Below, piece by piece: positions 4,726 to 28,733 of a stretch of 33,414 bases of DNA (position 1 is its first letter; every line of letters begins with the position of its first letter). Origin of the DNA: Microcaldota archaeon (GTDB lineage Archaea; Micrarchaeota; Micrarchaeia; Micrarchaeales; CABMGC01); the NCBI GenBank assembly GCA_028867135.1, contig JAGWGW010000010.1:1-33414 (forward strand), read 5' to 3'. The position numbers were made by a program, and so were the translations under genes. Below the pieces are notes generated by a model that worked only from the letters and a program-made list of their open reading frames with translations, was not told where the DNA came from and made no database searches.

Positions 4726-5058
4726 TTACATGCTCGAATTGAGCTTGTAGACCTGCAGGAACTCCACCCCTTTTATCCTCTTTATGTCCTCCGGGTTCGC
4801 CATGCCGCTCTTCAGGATGATTGCCACCGACCTTTCCCCCACCACGTTTGCCGAGTATATGTTCTCTATGTCTATCTTTATCTTCTCCTGATCGAGGAGC
4901 TCCCCCTTGTAGAACGACGCGTACTTGTTCAGGTCCAGCTTCGCCCTTCCCTCGCTGAACTCCCTGCCTATGAGCTCCTCGTCGCACATCGCTATCATCA
5001 TGCCTTTCTCTGTATCGTACCTTTTCACGAATATTTTACCGCTGATGGAATCACCCAT
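4726..5058 (-). CDS. DUF424 family protein
   Basis: The 110-aa product matches the archaeal DUF424 family: a KRYDTEKGMMIAMCDEELIG segment, then REFSEGRAKLDLNKYASFYK and a C-terminal IKRIKGVEFLQVYKL. The biochemical role of DUF424 is not known to me. A longer reading frame runs upstream to 5163, but the extra residues are Ser/Thr-rich and lie inside the glycosyltransferase gene, so the ATG at 5058 is the right start. That ATG overlaps the end of the glycosyltransferase gene by eight bases (the stop is at 5051-5053), which points to coupled translation. The functional link between the two is unclear. Confidence 0.85.
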   Translation of the reverse strand: MGDSISGKIFVKRYDTEKGMMIAMCDEELIGREFSEGRAKLDLNKYASFYKGELLDQEKIKIDIENIYSANVVGERSVAIILKSGMANPEDIKRIKGVEFLQVYKLNSSM

Positions 5059-6619
5059 ACTTGTAGAAGAAGTAGAATGTGGAGATGTAGAGGAAGCTGT
5101 ACCACAGGAGCCACAATCCCCCTGAAAGGTCGTGGATAGTGAATGCGAAGATCCCAAGGACAAACAACGAGCTTGAGAAGACGACTTCTGATATCGAGTT
5201 CCTGAACGCTGCGCCTATCTTCCTGTTCATGCCGCTTCCGCTGCCCGTATGCCACGGAATTGACGGCGATACGTTCATGACCGCTGAGAGAGCTGCTTTT
5301 GCTCTTATGAAAGCCAGAGCGAAGTTGAGTATGAAGACCATGAACCCTTTCCTTATGGACTTGAAATGGATCTTTGTAAGGACCACTGGGGCTATGAGCG
5401 ATAGCGCGAACGTGGAGAACCCCAGTATCTCCATGGTTGTTGTCAGGGATCTGGTCTGGGCTATCTGCTGGAGCGTTATCTTCGCAAGCGGCACCGAGGA
5501 GAAGACTATGAGGACCGATACTATCGTGAAGAATATGAGGAACGTTGAGATGTAGTTGAGGCCGAACCCGTGCGTTATGTAGTCGATGTTCGACATGACT
5601 GACAATGGTTTCTTCCTGCTGAGTAGGCCCGCCTTCTTCATGAAGTAGCCCAGGAACTGCGTGTCGCCGTAATTGTAGCGCCACTGCTGCTTTACCAGCT
5701 CCGTGAACGTTTTAATCGGCTTTCCGAGCGCGTATACCTTTGGGATGTACAGGCTCTTGTACCTGTGGAGGTCGGATTCGAGGCTGAAGAATGTGTCCTC
5801 CACTATGTACTCGGGAAATCCGCCTATCGCATCGAGCGCGGACCTTCTTATTATGCCGCACGAGCCTGCGAATATCGCCGTGTTGTTGAGGGCCCTTGAA
5901 GGCTGTATGAACTTGAAGAAGAATGCGTCGAAGAGGTCGACTGTATCAGAGAAGAACGTGCCCTTGGAATATCTCTTCTCTGTCTGTATGTACGATACGC
6001 TTGGATCGTTGAAGTACTTGAGCAGGTCCATGAGGAAGCCCTTGTCCTTGAGATGCTCGTCGTAGTCGAATATCGCTATGAACTCCTCATTCGAATGCTT
6101 CAGCATGTTGTTCAGCGCACCAGCCTTGAATCCTGTCCTAAGCCTCCTGTGTATGTACGTGTAGCCGTTCCGCTTGCTGAATTGCCTGAGCTCGCTTGCG
6201 TCTCCTGCGTTTGTGGAATCGTCGAGGAGGTAGAACCTTATCCTTGAGCTTGGATAGTCCATCTCTTTCAGCCTGAGCAGGTTTTTCTTGACTATTTCCG
6301 GGTCCTCGTTGTACACGGGCACTGCGACTGCGACTGTGGGCAGTTCCTTGAGCTCATCGGTTTTCCTCTCGAGGTTCTCTATGTAATCGTCGTATAGGGA
6401 TGACCTGTAGTAGGAGTATGACGCGAAGATGTTGAAGAAGCCGGATACCGCTGCAAGCGCAAGGAAGAGCATCGCGAGCGAATAGCCGTACATGCTTCCT
6501 GAGCTTGTGTAAAGCAGATATAGCGCAAATGTTATTCCTGCAATCGTAAGGAGGATGAAGAAGATTATCGGCGCTAATGACGCTGCCCTGTCCAGTAAGT
6601 CCATACTATCTACTACCAT
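5051..6619 (-). CDS. membrane glycosyltransferase family 2 (cellulose-synthase-like)
   Basis: This 522-aa protein has two N-terminal membrane helices (about 15-35 and 45-68), a cytoplasmic GT-A domain, and several helices at the C-terminus. The catalytic motifs of processive GT2 enzymes are present: VAVPVYNED, LLDDS, the D-x-D motif as IFDYDEH, the EDTFFS acceptor motif (VEDTFFSLESD) and QQWRYNYGD in the place of Q-x-x-R-W. Such enzymes use nucleotide sugars to build or extend surface polysaccharides or lipid-linked sugars. A minus-strand TATA (ATTATTAATATA, about 6640-6651) lies roughly 25 bases before the ATG at 6619, so the message is probably leaderless; the ATG at 6604 is an alternative. 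It shares an operon with DUF424. Confidence 0.88.
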   Translation of the reverse strand: MVVDSMDLLDRAASLAPIIFFILLTIAGITFALYLLYTSSGSMYGYSLAMLFLALAAVSGFFNIFASYSYYRSSLYDDYIENLERKTDELKELPTVAVAVPVYNEDPEIVKKNLLRLKEMDYPSSRIRFYLLDDSTNAGDASELRQFSKRNGYTYIHRRLRTGFKAGALNNMLKHSNEEFIAIFDYDEHLKDKGFLMDLLKYFNDPSVSYIQTEKRYSKGTFFSDTVDLFDAFFFKFIQPSRALNNTAIFAGSCGIIRRSALDAIGGFPEYIVEDTFFSLESDLHRYKSLYIPKVYALGKPIKTFTELVKQQWRYNYGDTQFLGYFMKKAGLLSRKKPLSVMSNIDYITHGFGLNYISTFLIFFTIVSVLIVFSSVPLAKITLQQIAQTRSLTTTMEILGFSTFALSLIAPVVLTKIHFKSIRKGFMVFILNFALAFIRAKAALSAVMNVSPSIPWHTGSGSGMNRKIGAAFRNSISEVVFSSSLFVLGIFAFTIHDLSGGLWLLWYSFLYISTFYFFYKYG

Positions 6620-6682: not shown

Positions 6683-6819
6683 GCCGGGATGGCAGAATCA
6701 GGTATCGCGCCAGAAGATTTGGCGAAACTCGAGATCTGGTGGCCTTCGGGCTTTTAGGGTTCAAAATAAGCTTTTGGAAAAAGCTTAACCAAAAGCTGAT
6801 GAGATTCCCTATCCCGGCG
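6683..6819 (+). tRNA. tRNA-Ser (anticodon CGA) with two introns, at 30/31 and in the T-loop at 59/60
   Basis: The acceptor stem is GCCGGGA (6683-6689) with TCCCGGC (6812-6818), seven perfect pairs, followed by G73 (6819), the serine-type discriminator. The anticodon loop CTCGAGA (6728-6734) contains CGA at 6730-6732. The long variable arm (6740-6754) has a GCC/GGC stem closed by TTCG. The T-stem is TAGGG (6755-6759) with CCCTA (6807-6811). Two insertions must be removed. Intron 1 is 13 nt (6714-6726), flanked by the CGCC/GGCG helix (6708-6711 with 6721-6724) and three-base bulges. Intron 2 is 40 nt (6766-6805), with a four-pair helix TTCA/TGAG, bulges AAA and ATT, and an internal nine-pair hairpin. 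The spliced length is 84 nt. The D-stem contains an A-C mismatch. CCA is not encoded. Confidence 0.85.
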
Positions 6820-6823
6820 CATC

Positions 6824-7309
6824 TTATTGGGCGTAGAATAGTCTTTCCAGTTTTGTCAGGTCCTTCATGGGGTTTCCATTGTATACTGCAATGAGTATCT
6901 TATTCATGACTGGGTCCTCAACGATTATGCAGTTCTTTCCTCTCTTCTTGTTGAATATGCATTCGGGGAGAAGGTGGTGATGGTGCCATTCGACTCCCAT
7001 GCTGCTTAGTTCCTTGGCTCTTTTCAATATCGCATTGAACCGCGGATTATGTTTTCCTTCGCCAACTTTTGCAAGGAATCCCTTGCCGTAGACCATGTCC
7101 GCAAGGGTTTTGGCCTGTTTCTTTGGTTTCCTCTTGAATAGGCATATGTAACTTTTTCCCTCTAGATGGTCCTCCAATGCAATTGCGAAGTTGTCTTTAT
7201 GTGAATTAAATACGCACCACGGTCCTAACAGGTGCCAATGCCATTCTCTGTTTTCCTTACTGAATCCTTTTGCAAGCAAGAATAGTTTCTTCTCTCCAAT
7301 TACCTGCAT
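6824..7309 (-). CDS. hypothetical protein with two tandem EWHxH-C-FN-ED domains
   Basis: I do not recognise this 161-aa protein. It has an internal duplication: residues 22-58 and 107-143 align without gaps over 37 positions, with 14 identities by my count. Both copies share E-W-H-x-H, then L, P, C, F-N, and an E-D pair (compare REWHWHLLGPWCVFN with VEWHHHHLLPECIFN). The similarity extends upstream (AKGFSKENREWH with AKELSSMGVEWH). The His/Cys pattern could bind metal, and the GVEWHHHH opening faintly recalls WHH-type nucleases, but this is speculation. No signal peptide or membrane helix is seen. The gene is AT-rich, lies downstream of vapBC on the same strand, and its stop is four bases from the tRNA-Ser 3' end. 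Confidence 0.7.
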   Translation of the reverse strand: MQVIGEKKLFLLAKGFSKENREWHWHLLGPWCVFNSHKDNFAIALEDHLEGKSYICLFKRKPKKQAKTLADMVYGKGFLAKVGEGKHNPRFNAILKRAKELSSMGVEWHHHHLLPECIFNKKRGKNCIIVEDPVMNKILIAVYNGNPMKDLTKLERLFYAQ

Positions 7310-7547: not shown

Positions 7548-7970
7548 CTACACCATTTCCTTGTAATTCAATATGTTGATCTTATACCTTTCCTTAATCA
7601 TTCTTTTGCTGTTGTTTATTTTTGTATCTTCAGTAATTAGGTCCTCCTTCAAAACTACTGCGGTCGCTACAATCACGCAATCTATATAGTCCTTAAATTG
7701 TTGCGATAACGTATATGCAACCTCTATTATCTCTGGATTGTAGAACGGCTCAACCCTGAAGCTACTGCGGATGGCCTTTATGGCATCTATTGCCAGGCTT
7801 GTCGGCAATCTCAGCTTGGCTACTTTTGCCTGAATTTCGAATAAAGATATCTGGCTTACACCCAATTCGTCGAAGGATAGGGTAGTTTTGCCGTCATCTA
7901 TGGCTCTTAACAGATCCGTGTTTATCTCTATGCCGGAAAGGCGCAATAGGTATGTGGTATCGATTATCAA
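7548..7970 (-). CDS. vapC: VapC-type PIN-domain ribonuclease toxin
   Basis: This 140-aa protein is a PIN-domain nuclease. It has the N-terminal acidic residue in MIIDTTYLL, a glutamate in ISLFEIQAK (about 45), an aspartate in KDYIDCVIVATAV (about 97), and the final acidic pair in LITEDTKI (about 113). VapC toxins cleave specific RNAs, commonly tRNAs or rRNA. The start is TTG at 7970, and the TTGA overlaps the stop of the upstream gene by four bases, typical of vapBC coupling. Codon use is AT-rich compared with the housekeeping genes around it. Confidence 0.88.
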   Translation of the reverse strand: MIIDTTYLLRLSGIEINTDLLRAIDDGKTTLSFDELGVSQISLFEIQAKVAKLRLPTSLAIDAIKAIRSSFRVEPFYNPEIIEVAYTLSQQFKDYIDCVIVATAVVLKEDLITEDTKINNSKRMIKERYKINILNYKEMV

Positions 7971-8206
7971 GATTGCACCGATTTAGACAGCTCGCGCCTG
8001 AATCTCTCAAACTGTTTCTGACTTACCTTGGCGACTGTTTTCGAATGTATGAGTTTGGTTAGGCTGTCCCTGTTTGACAAGCTTTTCTTCACTATTTTAT
8101 TCAATACCTTAGATATGGCCTTAGAGCTATTGTACTTCTCAAGGCTTTCCCTAACAAGGGCATCGTAGACATCTTTGTCCAATAACACAGTGGTCCTCCT
8201 CGTCAT
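7967..8206 (-). CDS. vapB: VapB-type antitoxin, ribbon-helix-helix
   Basis: The 79-aa product begins MTRRTTVLLDKDVYDALVRE, a ribbon-helix-helix DNA-binding start in which the TTVLLD strand contacts DNA, and continues with a charged C-terminal region (KQFERFRRELSKS) suited to binding the toxin. The ATG at 8206 is preferred over the TTG at 8212 because it opens directly onto the strand. It overlaps vapC by four bases. A nine-base inverted repeat sits just upstream over the promoter, as expected for an autoregulated antitoxin operon. Confidence 0.82.
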   Translation of the reverse strand: MTRRTTVLLDKDVYDALVRESLEKYNSSKAISKVLNKIVKKSLSNRDSLTKLIHSKTVAKVSQKQFERFRRELSKSVQS

Positions 8207-8219
8207 CAACAAACACCTA

Positions 8220-8255: not shown

Positions 8256-9491
8256 CTACTGCGAGAGGCTCCTTATGTCGAACCTCTCGGCTTTCGTTAT
8301 CTCGTTGAGGAGCACTGTAGCATAGCTGCCTGATGGAATCGCGAAGCCTATCTTTGCGTTGCTGTGTTTTTCATTGAATGAATATTTCATCTCTTTTATC
8401 GGCGCCAACATAACCCTGAAGGAGCCTTTCATTGACAGTTCAGGCATGCCCCTTATCTTGAAGTCCTGGGCCTTTATTTCCAGTGTTTCCATCGCTTCCT
8501 TCTCATATTCCGATATGTACTGCTCCTTAGTCTCATAGCCTATCAGCGGGGCCGCTGCAAATTCTCCATCTGTTGCATTTACCGTACTTATATCTGGGAA
8601 ACCGTAGAAATTGGCTGCACAGTGCATCTCTGACTCGAAGTCCTTGCTCCTTATCCTGCCTTCGAGTGCATTGTTGAATACCATGCTCTCCACAGCATGT
8701 ATGAACATTATCAGTATGCCCCTCGGTATCTTCCTGAGCGCATTCGCGTAGTTGTCGTACATGGCCATGTACGATATGACGCTCCTCTCTCCTTTGAGGT
8801 GCCTCGGGAAGTAGGATAGCGCGCTCTTGAAGTCCATCTCCTCTGCAAGCCTCTTCCTGGCTTCCTTTGCATCTGCGTTTGTCTCGTTCTCTGTGTCGGT
8901 CAGGTAGTGCATTGCTGCTTCCTTGAAGTCGTTCCTCATTATGCACAGGCCTACGGTCGCGTTGTTCAGCCTTGACCCGAACCTCTGCCTGTCGAAATAG
9001 TTAGGAAACCTCCCGTTGAGCTCTTCGATTATAGGCTCGATCTTTGTTGAGGCGATCTGCCTTATGGATATCTCGAATGCGTTGCCTATGTTGCTTCCCA
9101 TCTCCACTCCGTTGCTCTTCCACGCCCCGTTTATCGATATGTCCTTCAGCCTTATCCTGGTCAGCTGTTCCGGGGTTGCGCCGAAGATGCTTGCAAGCTG
9201 CACTGATATCGATGTCCTGTCCTTTGTTCCCGCATATGCTATGGATTTCCTGCCCCTCCCAGCGAGCTTTGCTATGCTTGTCAGCGCCTGTATCGTGTTC
9301 CAGTCCCTCTTCTGCAGGACCATGGTCGTGAACTTGCCCTCAGGAACCTCTTCGTCGCCCAGATCCTTGCTCGTGTAGATTTTGCCCGGTTCCAGAATTA
9401 TTCCCCTGCCGGTTATCTCCTTGACGACAAAGTCCTCTGGAACGGACTTGAGGGTGCCGCCGATGCCATTGCTCTTTGACAGGTTTTCCAT
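8256..9491 (-). CDS. truD: tRNA pseudouridine(13) synthase TruD
   Basis: This 411-aa protein is a TruD/Pus7 family enzyme that converts uridine to pseudouridine in tRNA (position 13 in bacteria). The family signature with the catalytic aspartate, SIAYAGTKDRTSISVQ (Asp near 91), is present. Other family segments are NYFDRQRFGSR (about 165), the N-terminal VPEDFVVKEI, and the closing SGSYATVLLNEI. Length is normal for an archaeal TruD. The gene is divergent from the proline-dehydrogenase-like gene with 68 bases between them. A minus-strand TTATTATAATC near 9503-9513 could be part of its promoter, although it is close to the ATG. Base composition matches the chromosomal backbone. Confidence 0.95.
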   Translation of the reverse strand: MENLSKSNGIGGTLKSVPEDFVVKEITGRGIILEPGKIYTSKDLGDEEVPEGKFTTMVLQKRDWNTIQALTSIAKLAGRGRKSIAYAGTKDRTSISVQLASIFGATPEQLTRIRLKDISINGAWKSNGVEMGSNIGNAFEISIRQIASTKIEPIIEELNGRFPNYFDRQRFGSRLNNATVGLCIMRNDFKEAAMHYLTDTENETNADAKEARKRLAEEMDFKSALSYFPRHLKGERSVISYMAMYDNYANALRKIPRGILIMFIHAVESMVFNNALEGRIRSKDFESEMHCAANFYGFPDISTVNATDGEFAAAPLIGYETKEQYISEYEKEAMETLEIKAQDFKIRGMPELSMKGSFRVMLAPIKEMKYSFNEKHSNAKIGFAIPSGSYATVLLNEITKAERFDIRSLSQ

Positions 9492-9559: not shown

Positions 9560-10387
9560 GTGGTGATTCGCTTGGCAGAGGAGCCGATACTTGAAAGGGT
9601 CATGGAAAGGCTGATGGAGAAGCACATATCAGGCACCACCATGAGCTCGGCCCTGGACAAGGCCAAGGAGGCCAACAAGAACAGCATGATAGCCTCGATC
9701 AACTTCCTCAGCGCCGATGTCACCGACAGGTCGAAGGCAAGGTACGTCATGACAACGTATGCTGAGATGATAAGGAGGATATCGAGGTTCGGGATCAACG
9801 CCTCGATACAGGTGCCCCTCGACCAGATAGGCATGAAGGTGGGAAGGGATGTCGCGTACGGCAACCTCTCGGAGCTGCTGAAGATAGGGAATCGGCATGG
9901 CGTATTCGTTTGGGCCGAGGTGCGCGACAGCAGCGAGAGCCTTGACGAGTTCGACGACGCGAGGGGCTTCGGGGTGGCGTTCCACGACGACAAGGCCGAG
10001 AGGTACCTGAGGGAGTACAGGGGATTGAGGGCGTTCAAGATCATCTTCAGGGAGAAGGAGTACAGGGGCAAGGACTACTACGAAAGGATCGCGAAGAGCG
10101 TGACAAAGGGCAGGAGGAGCCACATGACGCCTGTGCTTTCGTCGCTACCTGAGAAGGCATTCTGGCAGCTGCTCAGGAGCACCTCTAGCGAAAGGAATTT
10201 AATCTTTGAATTTAGACTAGGTTATAGCAACAGCAGCATAAAGAAAGCCCTCAAGAAGGGTGCCAAACTCTGTGTTTTTGTTCCTTTCGGAAAGGACTGG
10301 GCAAGATATGCGATGAACAACGTGCCAGAAGGGTATATGCGCTTCCTCGCAGGAAGGCTGCTGAACGAGAACAAGCCTGGTGCTTGA
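9560..10387 (+). CDS. proline dehydrogenase-like protein, divergent
   Basis: The 275-aa protein has the outline of a monofunctional proline dehydrogenase: INASIQVPLDQIG, a GVFVWAEVRDSSES strand matching the usual GVFVWIDMEDSS region, a FEFRLGYS segment matching FEFQMLYG, and VFVPFGKDWARYAM matching VYVPYGTDWYGY. The enzyme family oxidises proline using a flavin. The last motif, normally R-R-x-x-E that binds the proline carboxylate, reads GRLLNE, so the first arginine is a glycine. Substrate may therefore differ. Start candidates are GTG 9560, GTG 9563 and TTG 9572; a TATTATAG near 9535-9542 favours the later ones. It overlaps the next gene by eight bases and opens a tight operon. No proline-5-carboxylate dehydrogenase is nearby. 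Confidence 0.6.
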   Translation: MVIRLAEEPILERVMERLMEKHISGTTMSSALDKAKEANKNSMIASINFLSADVTDRSKARYVMTTYAEMIRRISRFGINASIQVPLDQIGMKVGRDVAYGNLSELLKIGNRHGVFVWAEVRDSSESLDEFDDARGFGVAFHDDKAERYLREYRGLRAFKIIFREKEYRGKDYYERIAKSVTKGRRSHMTPVLSSLPEKAFWQLLRSTSSERNLIFEFRLGYSNSSIKKALKKGAKLCVFVPFGKDWARYAMNNVPEGYMRFLAGRLLNENKPGA

Positions 10388-28659: not shown

Positions 28660-28733
28660 CGGGGGGCCCGTGATTTGAACACGGGTCGCCACCTCCCGAA
28701 GGTGGAAGCCTGACCAGACTAGCAGAGCCCCCC
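28660..28733 (-). tRNA. tRNA-Pro (anticodon CGG)
   Basis: On the minus strand the acceptor stem GGGGGGC (28733-28727) pairs fully with GCCCCCC, followed by G73 at 28660. The anticodon stem CCACC/GGTGG encloses TTCGGGA with anticodon CGG at 28696-28698. The T-arm is CCGTG, loop TTCAAAT, CACGG. The D-stem has a T-T mismatch at 10-25. No intron, and CCA is not encoded. Its first base follows the M24 peptidase stop codon with no gap. Confidence 0.92.

Follow-up and report, generated by a model that had tools for sequence, protein, structure and literature searches.

Two introns at non-canonical positions in a predicted tRNA-Ser(CGA) gene of a Micrarchaeota archaeon

Can a working serine tRNA gene lie in DNA from which no continuous tRNA can be folded? 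This question is raised by positions 6683 to 6819 of contig JAGWGW010000010.1 (assembly GCA_028867135.1, a Micrarchaeota archaeon), the 33,414 nt of which are referred to here as the window. A preliminary description of this locus had proposed that the removal of two segments, 6714-6726 and 6766-6805, leaves an 84-nt tRNA-Ser(CGA) with G73. Our comparison indicates that the locus is almost certainly a working tRNA-Ser(CGA) gene of this organism, probably its sole one, from which two introns would be removed by the archaeal protein-splicing route.

Results

Spliced and unspliced forms of the gene

Joining the three exons gives an 84-nt class II tRNA, which ARAGORN calls tRNA-Ser(cga), with the cuts exactly where they had been placed (Table 1). 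The spliced sequence has the long variable arm, the serine anticodon and the G73 that mark class II tRNA-Ser. Pairing is perfect, as described before, in the acceptor stem (7 bp), the anticodon stem (5 bp) and the T stem (5 bp); the D stem, for which this had never been claimed, has one mismatch. The unspliced gene was not called by ARAGORN, with intron mode on or off, and had no Rfam match at the gathering score; it does escape ordinary scanners, as had been anticipated.

Orthologues and intron boundaries

The genomes of the family (79 searched) yielded a full parsable gene in 51 cases, the exon ends of five being set by hand. Junctions were parsed directly; a mixed MAFFT alignment of precursors placed the third exon of short forms wrongly and was left out of the counts. 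ARAGORN called Ser(cga) in all 51 orthologues when they were spliced, in only two (the intronless ones) when unspliced, and in seven in intron mode.

Intron 1 interrupts 49 of the 51 genes between tRNA positions 30 and 31. Its 42 different sequences measure 11 nt (2 genes), 12 nt (3), 13 nt (18), 14 nt (14), 15 nt (10), 16 nt (1) and 18 nt (1), and end in GGCGAA (48) or GGCGAG (1), with variable first bases and loop, whereas the exon side, GCGCCAG, is invariant in 51/51. Intron 2, between positions 59 and 60, is present in 39 genes (14-45 nt, 37 different sequences) and absent from 12. Thus, the inserts vary freely among orthologues and the motif parts stay constant. Two orthologues, G007 and G008, have neither intron, so that their exon junctions can be read directly, and the exon 1 junction is the same in them (L066, L067). 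Intronless and one-intron orthologues together fix both boundaries, in agreement with the earlier assignment to 30/31 and 59/60.

That the true cuts lie one base away, e.g., at 31/32 for intron 1, is therefore improbable. Intron 1 and the exon after it both start with A, which makes the choice undecidable from the window alone, but intron 1 starts with T or C in 13 relatives, where only a cut at 30/31 keeps the A31-T39 pair; hence the cut is 30/31, not 31/32. At the other site, the T loop of intronless relatives has A59-T60.

The tRNA pieces also change in a concerted way. T-stem pair 49:65 is T-A in 32 genes and C-G in 19, pair 50:64 is T-A in 34 and A-T in 17, and acceptor pairs 5:68, 6:67 and 7:66 covary on both sides across the introns. 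These two-sided changes mean that the pieces of the tRNA still pair across the introns. A locus that is really a decayed tRNA-Ser pseudogene, mendable on paper by chance, with UCG read by another tRNA, would fit the failure of the finders on the unspliced gene and the presence of a tRNA-Ser(TGA) gene (L035). Such decay is scarcely credible against perfect stems, compensatory changes, the lack of any second copy found, and a pair of interruptions that recurs at unchanged positions in dozens of species of many genera.

Some family genomes use other Ser(CGA) genes; therefore, the gene described here is not universal. Four genomes of one genus (L063, L069, L078, L079) carry an intronless serine tRNA with anticodon CGA in the loop CCCGAAA, and thus C at position 33, where U is near-universal in tRNAs.

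Splice motifs

All motif elements of the preliminary description (the helices and bulges of both introns, the TAGGG/CCCTA stem and the nine-pair hairpin) are present where it had located them. Intron 2, with its TTCA/TGAG helix and its AAA and ATT bulges, is of the bulge-helix-bulge (BHB) type. The four bases before the last two of the intron pair fully with TTCA in 34 of 39 orthologues, as against 20 of 1017 other offsets (2%). In intron 1, the 4-bp helix and the 3' bulge are invariant among orthologues, and the 5' side is read as a loop, the relaxed bulge-helix-loop (BHL) form, because a conserved inner intron helix is absent. The intron-1 pattern did not occur in 100 shuffles of the window. 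In the window species, a hairpin of 7 bp and a 3-nt loop is possible for intron 1 (CGCCAGA-AGA-TTTGGCG), and it pairs the 5' cut site. The statement that the 13-nt intron lacks its own helix consequently does not strictly hold for this species; in most relatives, the full hairpin is impossible.

Two other identities were considered for the inserts and rejected. Self-splicing group I/II introns have a ribozyme core of a few hundred bases, compared with 13 and 40 nt here, and no such Rfam match was obtained. A C/D guide RNA in intron 2 was discarded since the TGATGA of the window intron is not kept in relatives.

Distribution beyond the family

The intron-1 pattern was found in 77 of 301 genomes of the phylum (49 of the own family and 28 of a second family of the order) and in 0 of 137 genomes outside the order; a reversed-pattern control had no match in the 301. 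Genomes of other orders (e.g., G172, G174, G175, G188 and G277), as well as four of the order itself (G007, G008, G193 and G198), have a CGA anticodon arm without interruption, and no genome in the phylum comparison had both the intron form and the uninterrupted arm. Intron 1 is the sole intron in 19 of the 20 genes read from the second family. Genome G229, of the second family, has both introns; because its sequence closely matches a first-family genus, transfer or a mis-binned contig is suggested.

These data bear on whether intron 2 alone is an intron, the mature tRNA keeping the 13-nt segment as an extension of its anticodon arm. So small a segment, folding into a hairpin in the window species, might be expected under such retention, but it interrupts the anticodon stem after position 30, and only without it is the arm complete. 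Furthermore, its length (11-18 nt) and loop vary among species, and it is precisely missing in the four genomes of the order with an uninterrupted arm. Retention is thus very improbable.

Copy number and codon demand

The genome (G000), a Micrarchaeota metagenome-assembled genome (MAG), comprises 961 kb in 33 contigs and is 94% complete. Within it, searches with the spliced sequence and with the anticodon-arm core (up to one mismatch) each led to one place, giving no second tRNA-Ser(CGA), and an Rfam tRNA scan with 41 candidates contained no other Ser(CGA). A second intact copy, which had been named, together with absence of the spliced RNA, as the sign of a pseudogene or chance similarity, was thus not found in this 94%-complete genome. 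In a partial tRNA inventory, built locus by locus, Ser(GCT), Ser(TGA) with a canonical intron (L035) and Ser(GGA) are separate genes. Another "Ser(cga)" called by ARAGORN (L031) was rejected, as its arm CCAGA-CTCATAA-TCTGG belongs to a tRNA-Met(CAT) with a canonical intron. Among the UCN codons of the window's long ORFs, UCG is the most frequent (133 of 386).

Splicing endonuclease

The genome encodes a 385-aa EndA (L113 895-2052), which matches Micrarchaeota records, the closest being MAG REEA68. Its residues 11-385 (375 residues) match ARMAN-2 EndA (PDB 4fz2) with an E value of 6.7e-148. Residues Y233, H249 and K280 align with the published catalytic Y236, H251 and K282, and Y157 and K158 with the published ASL residues Y160 and K161 (PMC6379350, PMC12397907). 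A single three-unit EndA of about 390 aa with the catalytic triad and the ASL lysine is what characterizes the epsilon2 type, and this is what the genome has. According to reviews, epsilon2 enzymes cleave relaxed motifs and introns at varied tRNA positions (PMC6379350, PMC4033280); ARMAN-2 EndA is reported to cleave both BHB and BHL substrates (PMC12397907). The fixed boundaries, the compensatory changes and the matching endonuclease argue for the original proposal of a gene interrupted by two introns.

Features of the locus and other interrupted tRNAs

The features of the gene are collected in Table 1, together with its neighbors. The divergent glycosyltransferase ORF starts 64 nt from the tRNA gene, and a convergent ORF ends 5 nt beyond it. 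Farther along, a PIN-domain ORF adjoins TruD and is preceded by an overlapping small ORF, an arrangement that resembles a VapBC-type toxin-antitoxin pair.

Table 1. Positions in the window of the tRNA-Ser(CGA) gene, its splice motifs and other features
Feature	Positions	Strand	Remarks
Exon 1, tRNA-Ser(CGA)	6683-6713	+	acceptor 5' strand, D arm, anticodon-stem positions 27-30
CGCC, exon strand of intron-1 4-bp central helix	6708-6711	+	tRNA positions 25-28
Bulge AGA, intron 1	6712-6714		
Intron 1, 13 nt	6714-6726	+	AAGATTTGGCGAA; between tRNA positions 30 and 31
GGCG, intron strand of intron-1 4-bp central helix	6721-6724	+	followed by bulge AA/A (cut at slash)
Bulge AAA, intron 1	6725-6727		
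Exon 2	6727-6765	+	A31, anticodon loop with CGA at 34-36, variable arm, T stem 5' strand, T-loop TTCAAA
TAGGG/CCCTA, outer stem of intron 2	6755-6759/6807-6811		
TTCA, exon strand of intron-2 4-bp central helix	6760-6763	+	T-loop positions 54-57
Bulge AAA, intron 2	6764-6766		
Intron 2, 40 nt	6766-6805	+	T loop, between positions 59 and 60
Nine-pair hairpin in intron 2	6769-6777/6789-6797		
TGAG, intron strand of intron-2 4-bp central helix	6800-6803	+	followed by bulge AT/T (cut at slash)
Bulge ATT, intron 2	6804-6806		
Exon 3	6806-6819	+	T60, T stem 3' strand, acceptor 3' strand, discriminator G73; CCA not encoded
Glycosyltransferase ORF	5051-6619	-	Pfam Glycos_transf_2; divergent
ORF	6824-7309	-	no Pfam match; convergent
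PIN-domain ORF	7548-8212	-	
TruD	8256-9491		
tRNA-Pro(CGG)	28660-28733	-	called by ARAGORN; no Rfam match at gathering score

Other tRNAs of this genome and of relatives also appear interrupted. T-loop introns were seen in Leu(CAA), Arg(TCT), Ser(GGA) and Ala(GGC) of G000 (L034, L036, L038, L039) and in tRNAs of Micrarchaeum sp. A_DKE, Arg(CCT) among them (L322, L324, L326, L328). The Ser(GGA) gene of G000 seems to carry a 13-nt anticodon-loop intron as well. Short D-loop inserts occur in the Leu(TAA), Ser(GCT) and Gln tRNAs of A_DKE (L325, L327, L323) and in Leu(TAA) of G000 (L040). In different genera (L035; L226, L227, L229, L231-L234, L241-L245), tRNA-Ser(TGA) retains CAAGAGCTGAT...GATG in its canonical intron; this conservation exceeds the expected need of a splicing motif, and CTGA/TGATG resembles guide-RNA box D'/C'.

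A proline tRNA with a T-loop intron lies on the minus strand of contig C16 of G000 (about 9690-9777; L333/L339). ARAGORN reads its spliced form as tRNA-Pro(AGG), with the loop TTAGGGA, which is the same in the relatives read (L340-L355). To our knowledge, A34 is almost unknown in archaea. G000 has one PF00383 deaminase-like ORF of 387 aa (L359), a conceivable candidate for a tRNA A34 deaminase. In several relatives (L342, L348, L351, L355), the proline tRNA has an additional short insert at 53/54, where the T stem passes into the T loop. The 11-nt insert of L342, AAACCCGGGAA, follows an intron-1-like grammar, with CCCG-AG before the 5' cut and CGGG-AA before the 3' cut.

Discussion

Sequence and comparison establish the gene, its exon junctions, the constraint on its helices, its conservation and the presence of EndA; from these we infer the actual cutting and ligation and the function of the product. 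The epsilon2 EndA would recognize a 4-bp exon-intron helix at each site and cut the flanking bulges or loop behind their second base; the exons would then be joined by RtcB-type ligation. Intron 1 may represent a minimal relaxed motif, in which the CGCC/GGCG helix and a 3' bulge cut after its AA would be accompanied on the 5' side by little more than a loop. This motif would use bases that later form the anticodon stem. Since CGCC includes positions 27-28, the stem could not close before intron 1 leaves. In the window species, the intron-1 loop can zip into the short hairpin, which EndA would need to open.

Intron 2 would be handled as a regular BHB, the T stem serving as outer helix and the T-loop TTCA as one strand of the central helix. 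The sequence GTTCAAAT is near-universal in T loops. Because of this, a T-loop intron need bring only TGRA and two bases, and so small a requirement would explain the reuse of the same site in Leu(CAA), Arg(TCT), Ser(GGA), Ala(GGC) and a proline tRNA of G000.

Several points weigh against a working, sole and twice-spliced gene. The 7-bp hairpin of intron 1 would hide the 5' cut site in the window species, and the predicted minimum-energy fold of the whole precursor lacks the central helix of intron 2. The CGCC/GGCG helix shows no compensatory change, because both of its strands are invariant. A second copy is conceivable in a genome that is 94% complete, and tRNA-Ser(TGA) might, in principle, read UCG.

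The simplest history, drawn without a tree, is that the 30/31 intron was gained at or before the base of the order and the T-loop intron later in one family, with several losses. The T-loop intron is probably the younger of the two, as it is nearly confined to one family. It is quite possible, if a little short of probable, that Micrarchaeota hold a distinct class of minimal tRNA introns of about 11-18 nt, with one 4-bp exon-intron helix, AG before the cut on the 5' side and AA before the cut in the 3' bulge. Such introns would lie in or at the end of a stem (30/31 in Ser, 53/54 in Pro), persist over a whole order and form the smallest substrate of epsilon2 EndA.

If so spliced, one site in a tRNA gene can hold a very small intron, almost devoid of structure of its own, throughout an order of ultrasmall archaea. 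Orthologues with no, one and two introns all exist, leaving a clear record of gain and loss, and the mini-intron predicts a lower size limit for epsilon2 endonuclease substrates. Serine tRNAs, and several others, can look absent when such genomes are annotated, and genes of this kind would also explain this.

BHB-type archaeal tRNA introns, several to a gene, are a known kind. ARMAN-1 and ARMAN-2, also Micrarchaeota, have an orthologous epsilon2 EndA and multiple tRNA introns at non-canonical sites, including relaxed BHL and hBH motifs (PMC4033280, PMC6379350, PMC12397907). In the related complete genome A_DKE, no Ser(CGA) was found among 18 candidate loci. The tRNAs of Thermoproteales, with up to three introns per gene, are similar in having several BHB-type introns at non-canonical sites (PMC8450103, PMC4033280), although they differ in phylum and in their (alpha-beta)2 endonuclease. 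Moreover, Thermoproteales introns have been described as rapidly accumulating, whereas the 30/31 mini-intron has lasted throughout an order. BHL introns of archaea and eukaryotes, like intron 1, combine one 3-nt bulge, a 4-bp helix and a loop, but typically at 37/38, in contrast to 30/31 within the anticodon stem here. As far as the literature compared shows, which did not include the published list of ARMAN-1/2 tRNA introns, what is new is a nearly structureless anticodon-stem intron of 11-18 nt, kept order-wide, with a clear record of its gain and loss.
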